In this document: positions 28,761 to 40,321 of the stretch, in pieces
Position numbering within the stretch: position 1 is the stretch's first letter
Layout of the letters: each line of letters opens with the position of its first letter
The notes under the pieces: model-generated
What the model saw: the letters and a program-made list of their open reading frames with translations, nothing else
Databases searched by the model: none
What the model was told of the DNA's origin: nothing
Program-made: the position numbers and the translations under genes
Source of the DNA: a virus
Strand: one strand, 5' to 3'
DNA length: 42,745 bases
IMG/VR virus record: IMGVR_UViG_3300047557_000484
Coordinates: 1-42,745 of that record

Positions 28761-30113
28761 TCAATAAATGCGGATGCCAGTCGTGCGGCCCGCATTCTTG
28801 TGTAACATCGAGAAGTCGCGGTGCAGCCAGTAGCCAAGACAGTCGTTCAGATGGTCAAAACCAGATTGCTTGTCTGGCATCTGGGTCTTCTCATCCCAGC
28901 ACTGCAGATCCAAGCATTCGATCAGCTTTTTGCAGCCTTGCCACACTTGCAAGCGGTTTTGACCTTTACCGTTCTCCAATAGCGCTTGAACGTTGTTGAC
29001 GCGATCCTTGATCGGCGGGTTTGCTTGTGGTGATTGGTTGCTGATGCCGTAGCTTTCTAGGATTTGAATGTCGGTTTTAGTGGCATTGGTTGATCGGTTG
29101 CCGCCACTGGCGTCGGGATAGCCGTAGATCTTGTGATCTGGGTAGCGGCGGCGGATCTCTTGGGCAAGCGCGTCAGTGTCCTGCGCGCCAACCACTTCAT
29201 CGACCACTACAGCGCGATCACCGATGCGAATGCCGACAACAGCGTTGGTATTGCCGACGTTAAAGTCAATGCCAATCCTGAGTGGTTCGCGGCTAATGTC
29301 AGGCAGCTCGCTAAAAACGTGCTTGCTGCGATCAAATCTGTCGTAAACACAACCGGTTGTAAGGTTACAGAACTCGCCTTCTAAGTAGCTCTTGAGAAGG
29401 CTTGGATCGTAGTTTGCTCTAAGTCGTTCAATAAAATCAGGCGGCAAATGCGGATTGTCATAGCTTCGCATCTTGATAAGCTTTCTGTCTTGCCTCAGCT
29501 TTGCTTCATCACTTGCGAAGGTTTGGAACATAAAGCGGAAGCCCTCCGGTGTGCTGGCAGCACCAAACTGCCGCACATTGCCAGAACGCAAGCGGCCAAG
29601 GATCTTGGGGAATGCCTTATTAGCAATGGATGGCGTCACCGTGTCGATCTCATCGGCAAGCACCCATGCAAGGTTTAGGCCGATGATGCGGCTCCAGTTC
29701 TCGAAGCTGCGACACAGGATCTTGGTGTCACCGCCTGGCAGGTGCAGCATGTACTCAGGCAGCGGCGATGCCCTGAAGGTGTAGGGGATCTCATACGCCT
29801 CGAGAAACTGCTCGAAGTCGTTCTGCCAGATGTCACGGATCAATGGGCCAGTTGGCTCCATCACGGCACCGATGAAGCCTTGATTGGCCGCGGCCAGCAT
29901 CACCGCTTTGGCGCATAGTGCACGCGTCTTGCCGGCGCCGTAACCAGCGCTGATGCCAATGATCTCTGTGGTGGCATCATCCACAAAAGCAAGCTGGCCA
30001 GGGTGCAGGTCAGCGCGGATGCGGTTGAGCAGATCACCCGTGTCCTCTTGCGTTGCGACATCCATAAACCCAAGCAAGCTGCCGGGCTGGCAGATGCCGG
30101 CGAGCAAACTCAT
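28761..30113 (-). CDS. terL: terminase large subunit
   Basis: A 450-residue packaging motor. Walker A is ISAGYGAGKT (residues about 54-63), Walker B is AWVLADEID (149-157), and the coupling motif is in GAASTPEGF (184-192). The C-terminal RNase H-like nuclease has Asp283 in GIDFNVG, Asp334 in GYPDASGG and a late Asp in FDHLNDCLGYW. It pumps DNA into the prohead through the portal and cuts it. It overlaps the small subunit by 4 bases. Confidence 0.92.
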   Translation of the reverse strand: MSLLAGICQPGSLLGFMDVATQEDTGDLLNRIRADLHPGQLAFVDDATTEIIGISAGYGAGKTRALCAKAVMLAAANQGFIGAVMEPTGPLIRDIWQNDFEQFLEAYEIPYTFRASPLPEYMLHLPGGDTKILCRSFENWSRIIGLNLAWVLADEIDTVTPSIANKAFPKILGRLRSGNVRQFGAASTPEGFRFMFQTFASDEAKLRQDRKLIKMRSYDNPHLPPDFIERLRANYDPSLLKSYLEGEFCNLTTGCVYDRFDRSKHVFSELPDISREPLRIGIDFNVGNTNAVVGIRIGDRAVVVDEVVGAQDTDALAQEIRRRYPDHKIYGYPDASGGNRSTNATKTDIQILESYGISNQSPQANPPIKDRVNNVQALLENGKGQNRLQVWQGCKKLIECLDLQCWDEKTQMPDKQSGFDHLNDCLGYWLHRDFSMLHKNAGRTTGIRIY

Positions 30114-30433
30114 GACATCTCAAACCGGAGCAGCTTGGCTTGATCTTCTAGGGCTTTGATTGCAATGCTGAGATTCCCTTTTGCGCGTGCTTCGCGTTCG
30201 TAATCCTGCAGCCTTGCTAGTGCAGCTTGCAGCCATTGTGGACGTTCAAGTTCCGAATCAAGGGCAATCAGCTTGCGCGCTTCCGCCATGTAATCGCGCA
30301 CTTGGCGCTCGCTGACGCCCCACAGCTCGGAACCGTGTTGAACGATCTGATGGTGGCTGTGAGCACGCAGGATGAGGTCATAAACCACGTTGACGCGGTT
30401 CTGAATCTCATCCTTGGTGCTCTTCTTTGCCAC
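30110..30433 (-). CDS. terS: terminase small subunit
   Basis: A 107-residue helical protein starting at GTG (30433). An N-terminal DNA-binding helix-turn-helix region reads EIQNRVNVVYDLILRAHSHH and WGVSERQVRDYMAEA, with the remainder forming the oligomerisation helices (LQDYEREARAKGNLSIAIKA). It recognises the packaging site and recruits the large subunit. The match to the family, plus its 4-base overlap with terL, makes the assignment good. Confidence 0.83.
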   Translation of the reverse strand: MAKKSTKDEIQNRVNVVYDLILRAHSHHQIVQHGSELWGVSERQVRDYMAEARKLIALDSELERPQWLQAALARLQDYEREARAKGNLSIAIKALEDQAKLLRFEMS

Positions 30434-30436
30434 GTA

Positions 30437-31477
30437 TTAGTTGCGGACTTGCACAGGCATTACTAGATAAGTTACACCGTCCACGCCACTAGGTGTCAAC
30501 ACGACGGGAGTGGTTGCCGTATTGGCGTGCAGCGTGATGGCTTCTGCGGGCTTGAACGCCTTGATGCCGTCTAGCAGGTAGTGCACGTTGAACGCCCATG
30601 CGCCAGTGGCGGTGCCTTCAACAGCTAACAGCTCGCGGCCATTGTTGGCATCGGCTTCTGCGCTGATCTCAAGGCCACCGCTACCAGCCGTGAGCTTGAC
30701 GACGGAGTTGTGCGCATCGGCAATGATGGCCACACGCTCCAGTGCGCGCGTCAGGCGGCGCCGGTCGGCGGTGATGGTGTGCTTGAAATCACCGGGTACC
30801 AGCTTGGCCACGTCTGGGTAGGTGCCATCCATGATGCGGCTGTAGATGGTGATGCCATCGCCTGCGTCAATCACGGCTTGCCCTTTGGCAACGGCAATGG
30901 TGACCACGCGGTCCTGCAGCAGGCGCATGGTGCTGGCTGGTAGCACGATGTCTAAGCCATCTGGCAGGTCAATGGCGTAACGCATGAGGCGATGGCCATC
31001 GGTGGCTTCCATGTGGCCATTGCCAAGGTGGATGCCTTGGAGCAACTGCTTGCTGGCGTCGGTGCTGGCAGCTGCCATGCAGGCGCGGATACCGGCGGAT
31101 AGGTGCAGCTCGCTCGTAGCGGCGTCTACGACCGGCAGCGCGGGGTAATCCGCCGCATCAGCCGCTGCAAGCCCGTAGGAGCCGCTAGAAGCCGTCAGAG
31201 CGCCATCTGCGAGTGTCAGAGCCTCATCGCCGTCAAAGCGGCTTACAAGGCCAGCCAGCAGCCGATACGGCAGCGCTACAGCGCCATCGGTCTCCACTGC
31301 AGCGGGGATGGTGACGGTGATGCCGAGATCAAGGTTGAAGCCGGTGATGGTCATGACGCCACCAGCGGATTGGATCAGGCAGCAATCAAGGATCGCGTGA
31401 CTGCTGCGATGACCAACAGCGGGCGCAATGGTGCGCAACGCGTGATCCAGATCGGCTTGGCAGGTGACGGCTTTCAT
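30437..31477 (-). CDS. dnaN: DNA polymerase III beta subunit (sliding clamp)
   Basis: A 346-residue clamp of nearly standard length (about 366 in E. coli). Three domains are visible: an N-terminal one with ILDCCLIQSAGGVMTITGFN and TVTIPAAVETDGAVALPYRL; a middle one with SKQLLQGIHLGNGHMEATDG and HRLMRYAIDLP; and a third with YPDVAKLVP and the end VDGVTYLVMPVQVRN. The MEATDGHRL block and the YLVMPVQ end are clamp hallmarks. It would tether a polymerase to phage DNA. It starts 4 bases into the upstream gene and ends 3 bases before terS. No DNA polymerase gene is seen in the window. Confidence 0.9.
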   Translation of the reverse strand: MKAVTCQADLDHALRTIAPAVGHRSSHAILDCCLIQSAGGVMTITGFNLDLGITVTIPAAVETDGAVALPYRLLAGLVSRFDGDEALTLADGALTASSGSYGLAAADAADYPALPVVDAATSELHLSAGIRACMAAASTDASKQLLQGIHLGNGHMEATDGHRLMRYAIDLPDGLDIVLPASTMRLLQDRVVTIAVAKGQAVIDAGDGITIYSRIMDGTYPDVAKLVPGDFKHTITADRRRLTRALERVAIIADAHNSVVKLTAGSGGLEISAEADANNGRELLAVEGTATGAWAFNVHYLLDGIKAFKPAEAITLHANTATTPVVLTPSGVDGVTYLVMPVQVRN

Positions 31478-31683
31478 TTGACGGCAGCGGCAGTGACGAG
31501 GCTGGTGATGATGCGTTCGTAATCAGCGGCGAAGCTGTCGACCAGCTCCATGGGTAGGGGCACGCCGTCGTCAGTGGCGTTGTCGGCAATGGCCGCGGCA
31601 TACGCCATTGCTTGGGTCATGGTCTCATGCAGCCGATTGATCACCGGCTGTTGTTTGGCTGGGATGTGAATGAGCGATGACAT
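31474..31683 (-). CDS. small hypothetical protein between RHH protein and clamp
   Basis: About 69 residues from the ATG at 31683 (MSSLIHIPAKQQPVINRLHE); a TTG at 31701 would add six residues. Helical, with AMAYAAAIADNATDDGVPLP and DSFAADYERIITSLVTAA. It overlaps the ribbon-helix-helix gene by 59 bases and the clamp by 4 bases. It is translationally linked to the clamp, but the function is unknown. Confidence 0.55.
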   Translation of the reverse strand: MSSLIHIPAKQQPVINRLHETMTQAMAYAAAIADNATDDGVPLPMELVDSFAADYERIITSLVTAAAVK

Positions 31684-31906
31684 AGGCGACAAGAGTTTCA
31701 ACGTGACGGCGGTTCAGATCACCACGCATGAAGGCGCAGGCGTCCGCCACCAGCGCATGGTACGCCGCCGTGCTCAATCCTGCAACACCACCGCCACCCA
31801 ATGCACGCTGCCGGATCAGGTGCGCACGTGGAATGCCATGCGCTGCAGCTTCAGCGTTGAGGCGCGCCAGGTCATCAGCGGTGACATTGATCTTGATTTC
31901 GGGCAT
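31625..31906 (-). CDS. ribbon-helix-helix (CopG/Arc-type) DNA-binding protein
   Basis: A 93-residue protein. Residues 1-35 fit a ribbon-helix-helix domain: strand EIKINVTADDLARLNAEAAA, then helices through HGIPRAHLIRQRAL. The rest is helical (YHALVADACAFMRGDL, VETLVAYVIAHSHPSQ). Such proteins bind as dimers or tetramers to short tandem or inverted sites. It is the first leftward gene after the GTTACGCC repeat region, so those repeats are natural candidate binding sites (inference). Confidence 0.72.
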   Translation of the reverse strand: MPEIKINVTADDLARLNAEAAAHGIPRAHLIRQRALGGGGVAGLSTAAYHALVADACAFMRGDLNRRHVETLVAYVIAHSHPSQTTAGDQSAA

Positions 31907-31930
31907 GGGTGGGCTCAGTGAGTGGTGCAG

Positions 31931-32417
31931 ATTACGCCTTGTGAGCTGGTGTTACGCCTGTAACAGCCTGTTACGCCTACCGTAACACCCAAGATCGACT
32001 GCGGCGCAGTGGGTTTGCCTACCTCTGTTACGTTGTTACGCCTCTTTCCAGATACATATACATACATAGGAGCAGGGTTGTTTAGGGATTATTTGCTCTC
32101 TCTCTATAGGGGGGGATGTATTCCGGAAGCGTAACAACCGGGTTTTTCCGTAACATCCCTTGCGCTGCAAGGGATCTCGGCGTTACGCCGACCGTTACAG
32201 GCGTAACGCTATGCCTCCGAAATCGGGATGGACACTGCCCTTGAGGCACCAGTGACGCCTTTAAATCTTGTTACGCCTGGCTTGGTTGCGCCTGGTAAAC
32301 GCGCCAAAACGGTCGACCAGCAGTTGCTCCATGGCGTGTCGGAGAGGATGGCAGCGATGGCCTCAGCGGTGTTGCTGATCACTACGCAACCGTCGTCAGC
32401 CCTGATGCCGTTACGCC
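31931..32417 (+). repeat. GTTACGCC repeat array, candidate replication origin or operator cluster
   Basis: The 8-mer GTTACGCC (or its complement) occurs exactly at 31951, 31970, 32035, 32182, 32200 (inverted), 32270 and 32410. One-mismatch or shorter forms (GTTACG, CGTAAC, ATTACGCC, TGTAAC) lie at 31931, 31960, 31981, 32027, 32130, 32149 and 32194. Most lie in the gap 31907-32208 between the ribbon-helix-helix gene and the primase-helicase stop; two are inside the primase gene. The gap also holds an AT-rich patch (about 32050-32110) and hairpins. Iterons next to replication genes are typical of origins; clustered operator sites are the alternative. Confidence 0.75.
32155..32208 (+). other. 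hairpins in the putative origin
   Basis: Three consecutive dyads: 32155-32163 (ATCCCTTGC) pairs with 32167-32175 (GCAAGGGAT) around a 3-base centre; CGGCG/CGCCG flanks the repeat at about 32180-32190; and CGTTAC at 32193-32198 pairs with GTAACG at 32203-32208 with a 4-base loop. The last two are built from the repeat unit itself. They lie just past the primase-helicase stop on the leftward transcript, but no U-run follows in that direction. They could be a terminator remnant, a primer-type structure or protein-binding dyads. Confidence 0.65.
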
Positions 32418-34707
32418 CAAGCGTGGCTTCTGCTAGCTCTTTGGTTACAGCTAGGTCATTGGAATAACCAAGCACACGCTCTACCAATTCACCAATAGTG
32501 CGCGTAATAACCTTATCCGCTTCAACGCGGATTTGCTGCTGCAAGATACGCTGCAGGCATCGCCTTTCATCCGGTACTTCAGTAGTTTGAGAGTAAGACT
32601 CCCATTCGTTTTGATCAATTAAGGCGAACGCTTGATCGCGTGTTGGTACCTCGCGCGACTGCAAAGACCATGCACCAGCTAATAACGTGCCGTATTGATC
32701 GCCGAGCCGCTGGCTATCAAAAGCCTCTGCAGCCGCACGAGTAAAGACCCTAACCGACTGGCGAATAACGGGAATCAGGGATATGGTTCGCGCCTGTAAA
32801 CGCTGGCCAATGTTCTCTGTGACGTAGCGGTCAAGATCGCGGTCTAGCGCTTCCCAATGATCAAGTCTTGCCTGCTTGGCAAACTCATTTGGATTGCGCA
32901 AGGTGAGCTGTGCAAAGCGTGATTTATCGGCGCCTTGTTTCAGCGCAGTAGCAATGCTGCTCATCAGAAACATAGAGCGGATGGTGTAGCGCTGTGCATC
33001 ACCTTCAGCGCTGCCCTTGATGGTTTGCGCTCGTGACTCACTGCTGGCCACACGTGCTAGTGACAGCACGGCTTGCATCCGCTGCTGGTCTGGGCGCTCA
33101 TTGGACTCCGCCTCGTCAAACACCACCGGCAGCGCATCAGCCCGCAGGGTCTGCCGTAGGCCAGCTTCACTGGTGTTGCCGGCGACATGAAGGGCAAGGT
33201 CGCCGAGCAATGGGGCGATGTAGCGATCAAGGATGGCGGATTTGCCGGAGCCGGCGCCTGCTGTGAGCCAGATATGCGGCCGCCAGTCAAGAGCACCGCA
33301 GATCGGCGCAAGTGCTGCCCAGCCGGCAATCAGCAGGCCAGATGCTGGCACTTCCCATTTAAAGCGGCCTGCTAGCTCAAGCAGCAGATATGCATCTTGA
33401 TCAGGAAGCGGCACTGCCTTGCCAGGACCGCGCAGGCTGCCGAGCCGCTGGTAGAGGTATCGACTGCCGGCAATGCCGGATGATATGGAAACCTCTCGAT
33501 CGGTCAATACAAGCCGGTCGCCTAGGTGGAGCACGGATTGCTTCTGATCCCACCATGCGCCGCGGCCACGGATGCGATCTGGTGAGTAAATGCCGGCAGC
33601 GGCTTGGCGTTCAAACAGGCTGCTAGCTGCTGCAGTCCAGTTGGGGCCACGCTGCGCTGGATATAAAGCCTCCCAATAAGCGAGCGGTGCAATGGCGCAA
33701 AGGTTGGTGCCGGTATGCGCTGAGCGCGACAGCCTGGTTACCTGCCCAGTGCTGTGCGGCTGGTAATAGAAGGCGTCATGGTCAAAGCCAAGGCACGTGA
33801 AGTAGTCATTGCCATCCGGCAGTGGATCTGGCTCAATGACTGGCTCCGGTTCAGATTCTGGTGCCAGTTCCGGCAGCTCAATCGGTGCGGAGCGGTTTGC
33901 CTTGTAATAGCTTGCAGCTTCAGCCAGCGACCAATCAGCATCGGCTAGATCCCATCCCTCTGGCACATCTGCTGGCGGGTGCACGATGCGCACTTGATCA
34001 GCGCCAGCCTTCAAAAGCCTGATCGCCAGCTTTGCCATGGCTTCACGGCCTACGGCATCAGCGTCAGGCCATAGGACACAACGCCTGCCGGCAAGCGGTG
34101 ACCAGTCGGCTTTGTCGATAGCTTTACAACCACTTGGCCATGTGACGACCACGGCAGATGGGTAGAGCTGTGCCGCTGCATCAGCGGTTTTTTCGCCTTC
34201 AACCACCAGCACTGGTGCATTGGGCTTAAGGGTTAACTGACGCTTGCCATATAAAGGGCGTGGAACCGGCGGTGCTTTCCACTTCCAAGCGGAGCCATCC
34301 CACCACAGCGGGAGGATGTCTTTGCCGCCGTCTGGCTTGTTTTTGCGAACAACGTAAAACGTGCTGCTGTATTGCCAGAATTGCTTGCCGTGTGGCAATG
34401 GTGGATCTGGTATTGGCTTGGCAATGCCGAGATGCTGCTCAATGCGCTGGCAAGCCTCGACATAGGACCAGTTCTGATGGCGCATCAATAGATCCATGCC
34501 AGTGCCGCCACCACCTGACTGATCCTTGCCGCCACATTTATTGCAATACCAAGAGCCGCTGCCGTCTTGGTCGTCAAAGCGATAGCGATCTTTGCCGCCA
34601 CATAGCGGGCATGGCTGATGCTTGTCAGATAGCTGGTCTGGCGTCAGGCCGCAAAAATGCGCCAGCAGGTCAGGCCACCTGCCGTTGGCTGCTTCGATTG
34701 CGTTCAT
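32209..34707 (-). CDS. bifunctional primase-helicase
   Basis: An 832-residue replication protein. The N-terminal primase zinc ribbon has Cys33, Cys36, Cys55 and Cys58 (CPLCGGKDRYRFDD, WYCNKCG). A TOPRIM domain follows, with Glu170 in VLVVEGEKTADAA and the acidic pair in LWPDADAVG (215-217). The C-terminal helicase part, of the DUF927/P4-alpha-like kind, has Walker A AGAGSGKS (483-490) and Walker B PVVFDEAES (527-535). It would unwind phage DNA and prime synthesis. The start overlaps the stop of the 45-residue ribbon-helix-helix gene (ATGA). Several GTTACGCC-type repeats lie at its end and beyond. Confidence 0.9.
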   Translation of the reverse strand: MNAIEAANGRWPDLLAHFCGLTPDQLSDKHQPCPLCGGKDRYRFDDQDGSGSWYCNKCGGKDQSGGGGTGMDLLMRHQNWSYVEACQRIEQHLGIAKPIPDPPLPHGKQFWQYSSTFYVVRKNKPDGGKDILPLWWDGSAWKWKAPPVPRPLYGKRQLTLKPNAPVLVVEGEKTADAAAQLYPSAVVVTWPSGCKAIDKADWSPLAGRRCVLWPDADAVGREAMAKLAIRLLKAGADQVRIVHPPADVPEGWDLADADWSLAEAASYYKANRSAPIELPELAPESEPEPVIEPDPLPDGNDYFTCLGFDHDAFYYQPHSTGQVTRLSRSAHTGTNLCAIAPLAYWEALYPAQRGPNWTAAASSLFERQAAAGIYSPDRIRGRGAWWDQKQSVLHLGDRLVLTDREVSISSGIAGSRYLYQRLGSLRGPGKAVPLPDQDAYLLLELAGRFKWEVPASGLLIAGWAALAPICGALDWRPHIWLTAGAGSGKSAILDRYIAPLLGDLALHVAGNTSEAGLRQTLRADALPVVFDEAESNERPDQQRMQAVLSLARVASSESRAQTIKGSAEGDAQRYTIRSMFLMSSIATALKQGADKSRFAQLTLRNPNEFAKQARLDHWEALDRDLDRYVTENIGQRLQARTISLIPVIRQSVRVFTRAAAEAFDSQRLGDQYGTLLAGAWSLQSREVPTRDQAFALIDQNEWESYSQTTEVPDERRCLQRILQQQIRVEADKVITRTIGELVERVLGYSNDLAVTKELAEATLGRNGIRADDGCVVISNTAEAIAAILSDTPWSNCWSTVLARLPGATKPGVTRFKGVTGASRAVSIPISEA

Positions 34708-37563: not shown

Positions 37564-37902
37564 ATGACCGCAACCGTTACCTGCCCCTTCTGCAATGGCA
37601 CCGGCCACCTGCCCCATTTCAGCCATGTGCAAAACGGCGACTGCTTCGCCTGCGGAGCCACCGGCAAGCTGCGTGATCTGACTGCTTTTGTCGGCAACAA
37701 CTCAGATGTTGTCTTGACCGTCTGGACCCGCAACGGCAAATTCACCGGTGCGCACCTGCGCCAGCGCACTTGGAAGATCAACGGCCAATGCAAAGAATGG
37801 GGCCGTGATGCTTACTACCGCGAGATCAGCAACGCTGACGAAGCTCGCAACATCTGGCGCAATGCCAATCAACTCGGCATCATCACTGACCTAGTTGACT
37901 GA
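37564..37902 (+). CDS. zinc-finger protein, unknown function
   Basis: A 112-residue protein from the ATG at 37564; an upstream ATG at 37522 precedes the likely transcription start. The N-terminus has two paired Cys motifs (TCPFCNGTG, then CFACGATGKL), as in DnaJ-type or small zinc-ribbon proteins. The rest is a basic, aromatic domain (VVLTVWTRNGKFTGAHLRQR, then EWGRDAYYREISNADEARNI). It may bind nucleic acid or a host protein. No family is recognised. Confidence 0.68.
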   Translation: MTATVTCPFCNGTGHLPHFSHVQNGDCFACGATGKLRDLTAFVGNNSDVVLTVWTRNGKFTGAHLRQRTWKINGQCKEWGRDAYYREISNADEARNIWRNANQLGIITDLVD

Positions 37903-38279: not shown

Positions 38280-38476
38280 GCGAATCAGACATTTACTGGA
38301 CCTTTGCCACCGCCTACCAGCACGGCGGTGGTTTTTTTCAAGCCCTAGCTGCTGCTGGCCTGAAGGCTGACCCCGGCAACAAGCGCCGTCTGCTCGATGC
38401 ATTCCCTGAGCTGGTCGCCACCTACGGCACCGCCAGCCGGATGCACCGCCAGATGCGTAGCGGGGCAGCAGCATGA
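38276..38476 (+). CDS. small conserved protein, unknown function
   Basis: A 66-residue helical protein (MSESDIYWTFATAYQHGGGF, FQALAAAGLKADPGNKRRLL, DAFPELVATYGTASRMHRQM). No catalytic motif. It overlaps both neighbours by 4 bases, and immediately precedes the exonuclease. A terminator-like hairpin with seven Ts lies inside it at 38307-38338. Confidence 0.65.
   Translation: MSESDIYWTFATAYQHGGGFFQALAAAGLKADPGNKRRLLDAFPELVATYGTASRMHRQMRSGAAA
38307..38338 (+). terminator. terminator-like hairpin inside a gene (possible attenuator)
   Basis: CCACCGCC (38307-38314), a 9-base loop, GGCGGTGG (38324-38331) and TTTTTTT (38332-38338). The stem and T-run read in the same direction as the gene. It lies in the middle of the 66-residue protein's coding region, upstream of the exonuclease and annealase genes. 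It may reduce their transcription unless translation or antitermination prevents folding. Confidence 0.55.
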
Positions 38477-39264
38477 CCAGCAACGCCGACTACCACGCCG
38501 ATCCAGCCGTCAGCGCTAGCCATCTGCACGCAGTGGCTAAGTCGCCCTATCACTACTGGAGCCGCTACCTCGATCCCAAGCGCAGCGCACCGGAGCCAAC
38601 TGCTGCAATGCGGCTGGGCTCACTGGTGCATTGCGCAGTACTCGAACCGGAGGAGCTGCTGCAGCGCTATGGCGTCTGCGCACCACGCAATACCAAGGCC
38701 GGCAAGGAGCAAGCAGAGCGCATGGCTGCTGATGGCATTGAAGCCGTCACGCAGTCCGACATGGCGCTAGCGCTCAGCATGGCTGCCAGCGTCCGCGTGC
38801 ACCCTGCTGCTGCAGCACTGCTTGCCCATGGCAAGGCTGAGCAGTCCTTCTGGTGGAATGACGCCACTACCGGCCTGCGGTGTAAATGCCGCCCCGACTG
38901 GTATGACGGCAGCACTGTGGTTGATCTCAAGACCACTACGGATGCCAGTCCTGCCGGCTTTGCCCGTAGCGTCGCCACCTTCCGCTACCATGTGCAAGCG
39001 AGCCATTACCTAGCCGGCTTGCACGGTGCCGAGCGATTTGTGTTCATTGCCGTTGAGAAAACTGCGCCGTACGCGGTTGCGGTCTACGAGCTTGACGCCG
39101 CGGCCTTGGCTGCTGGTGACGAGCTACGGCAGCATGACATGCGCGTGATTGCCGACTGCCAAGCCACCAAGGAGTGGCCGGGCTACGGCGATCACTGCCA
39201 AGCGCTCAGCCTGCCTTCATGGGCATTACGCAACGACACTGCTATTACTTCGGAGGACTTCTAA
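38473..39264 (+). CDS. PD-(D/E)XK exonuclease, YqaJ/RecE-like
   Basis: A 263-residue nuclease of the kind paired with single-strand annealing proteins. Visible elements: LGSLVHCAVLEP (His53), the acidic CRPDWYDGSTVVDLKTT block (Asp142, Asp151, Lys153 in about 138-155), and the YHVQASHYLAGL helix. It degrades one strand from DNA ends to yield single-stranded tails for Bet. It overlaps the genes on both sides by 1-4 bases. The Bet-like gene follows after an HNH-like gene. Confidence 0.86.
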   Translation: MTSNADYHADPAVSASHLHAVAKSPYHYWSRYLDPKRSAPEPTAAMRLGSLVHCAVLEPEELLQRYGVCAPRNTKAGKEQAERMAADGIEAVTQSDMALALSMAASVRVHPAAAALLAHGKAEQSFWWNDATTGLRCKCRPDWYDGSTVVDLKTTTDASPAGFARSVATFRYHVQASHYLAGLHGAERFVFIAVEKTAPYAVAVYELDAAALAAGDELRQHDMRVIADCQATKEWPGYGDHCQALSLPSWALRNDTAITSEDF

Positions 39265-39560
39265 TGAGTAACCATCGCATACACCGCACTTGTGTGTATT
39301 GCGATTGCGTCTACAGCGTTTCCCGCTCCGCCCCTGGCGATCATTTCCCTGTTCCACAGCGGCGCGGCGGCATTGATACTATCGATTGCTGCCGAGAATG
39401 TCATTCGCTAAAGGATCGCATCAAGCTAGACGATTGGAACTACACGATGATTGGCAAGGTTGCGGCTGATTTTCCAAAGCTCAGCCGAGAAACCAGAATC
39501 TTTTTGGCGAAAGCGATCACTTTGTTTCAAGACGCAAAAGCATTAACTGAAGCACAATGA
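39264..39560 (+). CDS. HNH-type endonuclease
   Basis: About 98 residues from the ATG at 39264 (MSNHRIHRTCVYCDCVYSVS). An upstream in-frame start at 39174 lies inside the exonuclease. A compact HNH core is visible: CVYCDC, then GDHFPVPQRRGG, and CCRECHSLKDRI, with two CxxC pairs around a metal-binding His. The rest is helical. It sits between exonuclease and annealase, with overlaps of 1 and 4 bases, so it may be a homing insertion that has become part of the operon. Confidence 0.75.
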   Translation: MSNHRIHRTCVYCDCVYSVSRSAPGDHFPVPQRRGGIDTIDCCRECHSLKDRIKLDDWNYTMIGKVAADFPKLSRETRIFLAKAITLFQDAKALTEAQ

Positions 39561-40321
39561 GCACATCAATCACACTCTGGACACCAGAGCAAACGCAGCT
39601 GATCTCAACCACCATTGCGCCTGGCTGCAGCAATGACGAGTTGCGGCTGTTTGCCTACGCCTGCCAGCGCACTGGACTGGATCCATTCAGTAAGCAGATC
39701 TACGCCATCAAGCGCGGCGGCAAGATGACCATCCAAGCCGGCATTGACGGCTTGCGTGCTATTGCCGAACGCACCGGCCAACTCGATGGCTCTGAAACCT
39801 ACTGGTGCGGTGACGACGGCCAGTGGACTGACGTATGGCTTGGCAGCAAGCCACCTGCTGCGGCCAAGACCATCATCCACCGCAAGGGCAGCCAGCATCC
39901 ATTTGTTGGTGTCGCACGCTTTGCTGACTACAACGCCGGCCAAGGCTTATGGGCCAAGATGGGTGCCGCAATGATCGCCAAGTGCTCTGAGGCATTGGCA
40001 TTGCGCAAGGCATTTCCTGCTGACATGTCCGGCGTCTACAGCACTGATGAGATGCAGCAAGCTGAGGTTGAGCCGGTGACAGTGACCGCTGCACCTGCAC
40101 CTGCACCTGCACTGCCTGCGGGTGATGCCAAGCTGTTCCAAGCTGGCAAGGCTGCTATTGCCAAAGCCGACACGCTGGACAAGCTGCAAGAGGTCGTTGC
40201 GCGGATGGATAAGCGCAAGCCTGATCTCAGTGATGAGCAAAATCAACAGCTCATGGAGTTAGCACTAGCCAGAGAGGCTGCTCTAGCACCCGCCACCGAG
40301 GATCCGTTTGCCGATGACTGA
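39557..40321 (+). CDS. bet: phage recombination protein Bet (single-strand annealase)
   Basis: A 254-residue annealing protein. The core reads ELRLFAYACQRTGLDPFSKQ, YAIKRGGKMTIQAGIDGLRA, AERTG, and KCSEALALRKAFPADMSGVY, all hallmarks of the Bet/RecT group. The C-terminal third is a linker with a PAPAPAPA run and an acidic, helical end. It anneals strands made by the neighbouring exonuclease. The pair gives recombination-dependent replication or repair. It overlaps both neighbours. Confidence 0.9.
   Translation: MSTSITLWTPEQTQLISTTIAPGCSNDELRLFAYACQRTGLDPFSKQIYAIKRGGKMTIQAGIDGLRAIAERTGQLDGSETYWCGDDGQWTDVWLGSKPPAAAKTIIHRKGSQHPFVGVARFADYNAGQGLWAKMGAAMIAKCSEALALRKAFPADMSGVYSTDEMQQAEVEPVTVTAAPAPAPALPAGDAKLFQAGKAAIAKADTLDKLQEVVARMDKRKPDLSDEQNQQLMELALAREAALAPATEDPFADD

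Follow-up and report, generated by a model that had tools for sequence, protein, structure and literature searches.

An iteron array that covaries with the C-terminal winged helix of the adjoining phage primase-helicase is very probably a replication origin

Results

Organization of the locus

The window analysed here is a whole IMG/VR virus record of 42,745 nucleotides (IMGVR_UViG_3300047557_000484). The region of interest belongs to a replication gene cluster with the following genes and domains:

32209–34707, minus strand: primase-helicase of 832 aa, consisting of a Zn-ribbon and TOPRIM primase half, an SF3/Cch-like helicase (aa ~290–715) and a C-terminal winged helix
32212–32490, minus strand: C-terminal ~93 codons of the same gene, winged-helix domain and proposed iteron binder; the code residue (see below) is the Arg of the wing motif GVT-R-F
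31625–31906, minus strand: ribbon-helix-helix (RHH)-like gene of 93 aa, downstream of the array
30437–31477, minus strand: phage beta sliding clamp (NCBIfam dnan, 3.7e-49)

Elsewhere, the window encodes a dCTP deaminase (226–756) and a phage RNA polymerase sigma factor (917–1894; phrog_351, E 2.7e-62). A dense array of short repeats extends over the final ~210 bases of the primase gene and, on its other side, stops 25 nt short of the RHH-like gene. An earlier note on this DNA described the array as adjoining the primase-helicase and the clamp. The overlap bears out the former, while 'next to the clamp' is loose wording because the clamp comes two genes further on. The same note placed the array immediately ahead of an RHH protein, which is correct as to distance, but the profile match behind the RHH assignment is weak (VapB family, E 0.006).

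Structure of the array

The array is made up of four iteron blocks, two outlying iterons, a hairpin and a spacer:

31950–31987: block D, with sites at 31950 (plus), 31959 (minus, TGTTACA), 31969 (plus) and 31981 (minus)
32026–32040, plus strand: block C, TGTTACG at 32026 and 32034, both in one direction
32041–32129: AT-rich spacer, a proposed DNA-unwinding element, overlapping the least stable 80-bp region
32130–32155, minus strand: block B, with sites at 32130 and 32149
32155–32175: hairpin with a perfect 9-bp stem between blocks B and A, not built of iterons
32181–32208: block A, with sites at 32181 (plus, CGTTACG), 32193 (minus, TGTAACG) and 32202 (minus, CGTTACG)
32269–32415, plus strand: outlying iterons within the primase reading frame, TGTTACG at 32269 and CGTTACG at 32409

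The exact 8-mer GTTACGCC is found at 31951, 31970, 32035, 32182, 32200 (minus strand), 32270 and 32410. These seven copies, all within 31951–32417, are most of the ten present in the whole 42.7-kb window, whereas dinucleotide shuffles of the record contain 1.05 on average and never more than 3. The cluster of at least seven exact copies claimed earlier is therefore real, and the genome-wide count proposed as its check agrees. The shorter GTTACG behaves similarly, with 11 of its 26 genome copies in the array and one in the densest other 500 bp, and 200 Markov genomes never place more than three copies in a 500-bp window. The core unit is better written TGTTACG, which between 31950 and 32415 has eight exact sites and five with one mismatch, in both orientations. 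As in iteron origins, these short repeats are clustered in one array and form no cluster elsewhere in the replicon.

All three hairpins reported earlier exist as inverted repeats, but two of them are paired inverted iterons and only the one at 32155–32175 is a separate element. The reported AT-rich patch is confirmed: the 85-bp stretch 32043–32127 has an AT content of 58%, and the 80 bp of lowest stability in the nearest-neighbour profile of the region, which start at 32028, are surpassed in instability by only 0.02% of genome windows. An easily melted element thus lies beside the iterons, which flank it on both sides, an arrangement characteristic of iteron-type theta origins. The GC skew of the window, suggested as a further check, does not turn at the array and has its cumulative maximum near 37 kb. 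There is no DnaA box in the array, the single TTWTNCACA match of the window being at 37626, which argues against a DnaA-type oriC. An Rfam search of the window gives no match. A promoter-type explanation of the array is rejected as far as sigma-70-like sites go, since a scan of 31800–32600 finds none of these.

The primase-helicase

The primase-helicase matches the Pfam families Zn_Ribbon_Prim (2.7e-14) and DUF6371, and Toprim_3 is matched in 10 of 13 relatives. Its C-terminus ends in the motif G-x-x-[R/Y/H/W]-F-x-G. The AlphaFold model of the last 143 residues is a winged helix (pLDDT 90.2, pTM 0.80), in which the residue preceding the motif Phe, called here the code residue, sits in the first strand of the wing. 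The best VIA match of this model is SaPIbov1 Rep residues 452–552 (PDB id: 8tch) with 12% identity and a Z of 5.0, which is barely above or tied with unrelated winged helices. The VIA matches also include SCCmec Cch and SaPI5 PriRep1, and Foldseek with the C-terminal model alone gives no PDB match at E ≤ 0.001. The model of residues 290–832 is most similar to Cch (PDB id: 5dgk) both in VIA (Z 14.6 over 422 residues, almost the full length of the model) and in Foldseek (5e-8). The predicted fold of the helicase part most resembles those of the self-loading helicases SCCmec Cch and SaPI Rep. A PDB sequence search with the primase-helicase returns no chain at a meaningful E-value, and DUF927 has no match in the primase-helicase family. 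For this reason, the protein is described as working like Cch and SaPI Rep and is not filed as a member of their group.

Conservation of the array in relatives

A scan with the primase yields 80 IMG/VR loci, and the addition of scans with four further relatives and one bacterial-genome scan gives 178 unique loci of the primase family. Nearly all relatives (~160 loci) carry a dense array at the equivalent place 3' of the primase, as a search of relatives proposed in the earlier note would have it, with a word that varies by lineage (TGTTACG, TGTAACG, TCTTACG, TCTCACG, CCTAACG and others). In the examples read, the layout is kept and consists, in primase direction, of block A, the hairpin, block B, an AT- and AGAG-rich spacer, the opposed block C, an imperfect second hairpin and block D. 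The position directly 3' of the gene is that of SaPI/SCC-type iteron origins. Prophage relatives occur in Cyanobium, Vulcanococcus and Synechococcus, and Synechococcus phage S-H1 (69%) is the nearest isolate, which makes a picocyanobacterium the probable host.

The isolated Bdellovibrio phage phi1422 has 11 copies of TGTTACC right after its primase in a matching block layout, and its wing reads R-F. Most of the isolated relatives checked (Bordetella, Pseudomonas, Serratia, Aeromonas, Morganella and Enterobacter phages and Microcystis phage Mwe-JY13) have no dominant array between −400 and +500 of the primase stop. In Acinetobacter phage Acjo_20 (L412), about ten TGTAACA repeats occupy 494–844, and nine of them are upstream of the primase gene rather than downstream. 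Five cyanobacterial prophages or genome contigs (L327, L328, L329, L331, L333) have the primase-helicase and no recognisable array downstream; here the array has perhaps decayed, or another site is used.

A scan of viral contigs with the DNA word only recovers primase relatives that have the expected wings and a dense array next to the gene. It also finds dense TGTTACG arrays directly 3' of DUF5906, D5_N or Prim-Pol genes in unrelated phages (L424, L439, L447, L453, L471, L478) and, in L455, 5' of a replication gene. In all seven, the neighbouring gene has no match to the primase-family profile, and several families of initiator may share a single iteron word.

Covariation of the wing with the iteron word

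Iteron words were oriented by the layout of the array itself and classified without protein data, which assigned 157 loci and left 21 of the 178 unclassified, including the five array-less cyanobacterial ones. The residue before the conserved wing Phe follows the first two iteron bases closely: R is paired with TG in 86/86 loci, W with CC in 35/35, Y with TC in 28/28 and H with TC in 7/7 classified loci, and a single S locus has TC. Many loci are close relatives, and the distinct wings number 50 for R, 9 for W, 12 for Y and 4 for H. The word patterns had been widened after words such as TGTCCCG and CCAAACA were seen. When the narrower patterns of the initial scan are applied to the loci outside it, they give R-TG 58, Y-TC 9, W-CC 4, H-TC 5 and S-TC 1; 31 loci stay unclassified, and one, most likely L143, contradicts the rule with H-CC.

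On a tree of the primase core built without the C-terminus, the first dinucleotide changes 12 times, and the phylogenetically independent pairs are in agreement in 9/9 cases for TG (p 0.004), 8/8 for TC and 4/4 for CC. Base 4 tracks the residue three positions before the Phe less strictly: every Y or W case with S at that position has C, and among the R and Y cases V usually goes with T. Histidine is the weak spot of the rule, as L304, L306, L307, L309 and L311 carry [CA]ATTACG and L143, also with an H wing, has a mixed CCTTACG-like word. Overall, one wing residue nearly always predicts the first two iteron bases.

A trivial origin of this correlation would be that the iterons sit inside the wing coding sequence, and the window's own GVTRF codons do hold the iteron-like GGCGTAACA. 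However, an iteron falls within the 45 nt coding for the wing in only 35 of the 157 classified loci and in one of 36 in the TC class, and L062 retains GVTRF with iteron-free codons. Overlap with the coding sequence is almost certainly not what makes the wing residues track the iterons.

Exchange of the C-terminal domain together with the array

Comparison of close relatives reveals one further feature:

31931–32491 (ends approximate, ±20 bp): exchange cassette of ~560 bp comprising the C-terminal domain and the array, swapped as one tract between close relatives

The primases of L043 and L017 share 99% identity over aa 1–715 and 60% at the C-terminus. In 20-bp bins, the DNA identity of this pair is 85–100% before the tract, mostly 25–85% inside it and 90–95% after it, and the boundaries of the exchanged tract lie about −280 and +280 from the primase stop. 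Against either L014 or L017, L043 shows 86–100% DNA identity along the primase, 41–76% across the final ~93 codons plus the array, and at least 90% at the RHH gene. The iterons differ accordingly, being TGTTACG in L043 and TCTTACG/TCTGACG in L014 and L017. Covariation and cassette exchange both point to an adjoining initiator with matched specificity, as found at origins. Exonuclease VIII-like and RecT-like recombination genes are located at 38473–40321, and these RecE/RecT-like genes of the phage could help the cassette exchange.

The array lies 25 nt ahead of the start of the RHH gene, and RHH proteins often bind short repeats upstream of their own genes, so that it might be an operator or centromere of CopG/ParG/omega style. 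The earlier note spoke of a regulatory hub. A downstream RHH gene is detected, however, in 51 of the 146 relatives with a classified array and enough sequence and not in the other 95 (sequence search at E 1e-3, which may miss divergent copies). The RHH gene lies outside the exchanged tract, its protein hardly differs between phages whose arrays read TGTTACG and those whose arrays read TCTTACG, and no sigma-70-like promoter was found in 31800–32600. The array is not inherited with the RHH gene and does not diverge with it, the RHH protein is rejected as its partner, and an operator or centromere is highly improbable. Because the C-terminal domain is swapped with the array, and the RHH protein is outside the tract, nearly constant and often undetected, the partner of the array appears to be the C-terminal winged helix of the primase-helicase.

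Another candidate partner is the small terminase subunit (TerS), likely encoded at 30110–30433, ~1.8 kb away, in which case the array would be a pac or cos packaging site. Repeats can serve as binding sites for TerS, and TerS is ~72% identical between the window and L014, whose arrays differ. Against this, L010 shares the iteron class of the window and has no TerS homologue in the 6 kb downstream, which makes TerS an unlikely partner, and it is the primase wing residues that covary with the array across the tree. We regard a packaging site as extremely unlikely. The TerS gene of the window and that of L014 differ in part of their length (72% protein identity) between flanks of ~80–95%, and this is possibly another exchange spot.

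Discussion

We consider it very probable that the array is a theta-type replication origin, that the C-terminal winged helix of the primase-helicase binds its iterons, that the wing sets the word, and that cassette swaps change the specificity. The origin half of the earlier 'candidate replication origin or regulatory hub' is thus strongly supported by the conserved position and layout, the co-inheritance with the primase C-terminal domain, the easily melted spacer and the SaPI/SCC-like helicase fold, while a hub for the RHH protein is not supported. The arrays 3' of replication genes in unrelated phages and the one in phi1422 add independent support. On the other side stand the GC skew, the modest fold match of the C-terminal domain taken alone, the unclassified loci and the departures among the H lineages.

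The array and its layout, their conservation, the cassette exchange, the covariation and the predicted fold are computational results; from them we infer DNA contact, melting, loading and initiation at the array to proceed as follows. The winged helix would bind the TGTTACG iterons in opposed blocks on either side of the easily melted spacer and so place helicase rings there. The spacer would be opened and the helicase loaded without a separate loader, after which the TOPRIM half would make primers. The wing would set the iteron word: the residue before the wing Phe matches bases 1–2 of the iteron (R for TG, Y and usually H for TC, W for CC), and the residue three before the Phe would influence base 4. 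A change of specificity would occur by exchange of the ~560-bp cassette, binding domain and origin together, through its conserved flanks.

Iterons often serve several roles, and covariation is compatible with any binding function, so the array could partner the primase-helicase for autoregulation or incompatibility control and not for initiation. Most sites, however, are 3' of the primase gene and not at its promoter, one of the genome's least stable segments has an iteron set on either side, and the equivalent SaPI site is an origin (PMC7581432). A purely regulatory role appears very unlikely, and initiation at the array is the preferred reading.

On this reading, the array represents a familiar type of origin in a setting not seen before, in which specificity appears to follow a recognition code and cassettes are swapped in nature. 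It would provide origins and a one-residue origin prediction for a large group of mostly uncultured picocyanobacterial and other phages, and the near-identical phage pairs with swapped cassettes amount to a natural domain-swap experiment on how initiator and origin specificity change together. More speculatively, and in our view less likely than not, the code may be a compact one, in which one wing residue reads two bases and a second reads another, re-used by cassette swaps that are selected because they evade origin competition, whether this comes from co-infecting phages, from satellites or from origin-directed nucleases. By analogy, we suggest that a pressure like that of nuclease escape in the PLE satellites could act on the cassette.

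The alpha protein of satellite phage P4 is a primase-helicase with a C-terminal origin-binding winged helix that recognises short iterons, and P4 has two binding regions, ori and crr. The window protein is alike in its primase-helicase architecture, C-terminal winged helix and short iterons, but a single array was found in its genome.

In SaPIs, the Rep C-terminal domain recognises iterons directly downstream of the Rep gene (PMC7581432). SaPIbov1 Rep and SCCmec Cch share with the window system the predicted helicase fold and the place of the iteron origin, proposed for the window, just 3' of the gene; the modelled C-terminal winged helix of the window protein has its best, though modest, match in SaPIbov1 Rep. 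Unlike them, the window system belongs to tailed phages and not to satellites, its helicase is fused to a Zn-ribbon/TOPRIM primase, and its sequence has no detectable match in the PDB.

In the PLE satellites of Vibrio cholerae, the DNA-binding domain of RepA_N covaries with the origin, and the two are exchanged as one module while the remainder of the protein stays conserved, which lets the satellite escape an origin-directed nuclease (PMC8263062). The joint exchange of initiator binding domain and origin is the same here, but PLE RepA_N is of another protein family, with an N-terminal binding domain and ~30-bp semi-palindromic iterons, whereas the window system uses a C-terminal domain physically joined to the origin and many iteron words. 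Geminivirus Rep offers a parallel in its short iterons, which vary from one close relative to the next and correspond to the cognate Rep (PMC12548392). The window array is similar in this pairing of variable short iterons with a cognate initiator, while geminivirus Rep is a rolling-circle protein of ssDNA viruses with an unrelated fold and mechanism.
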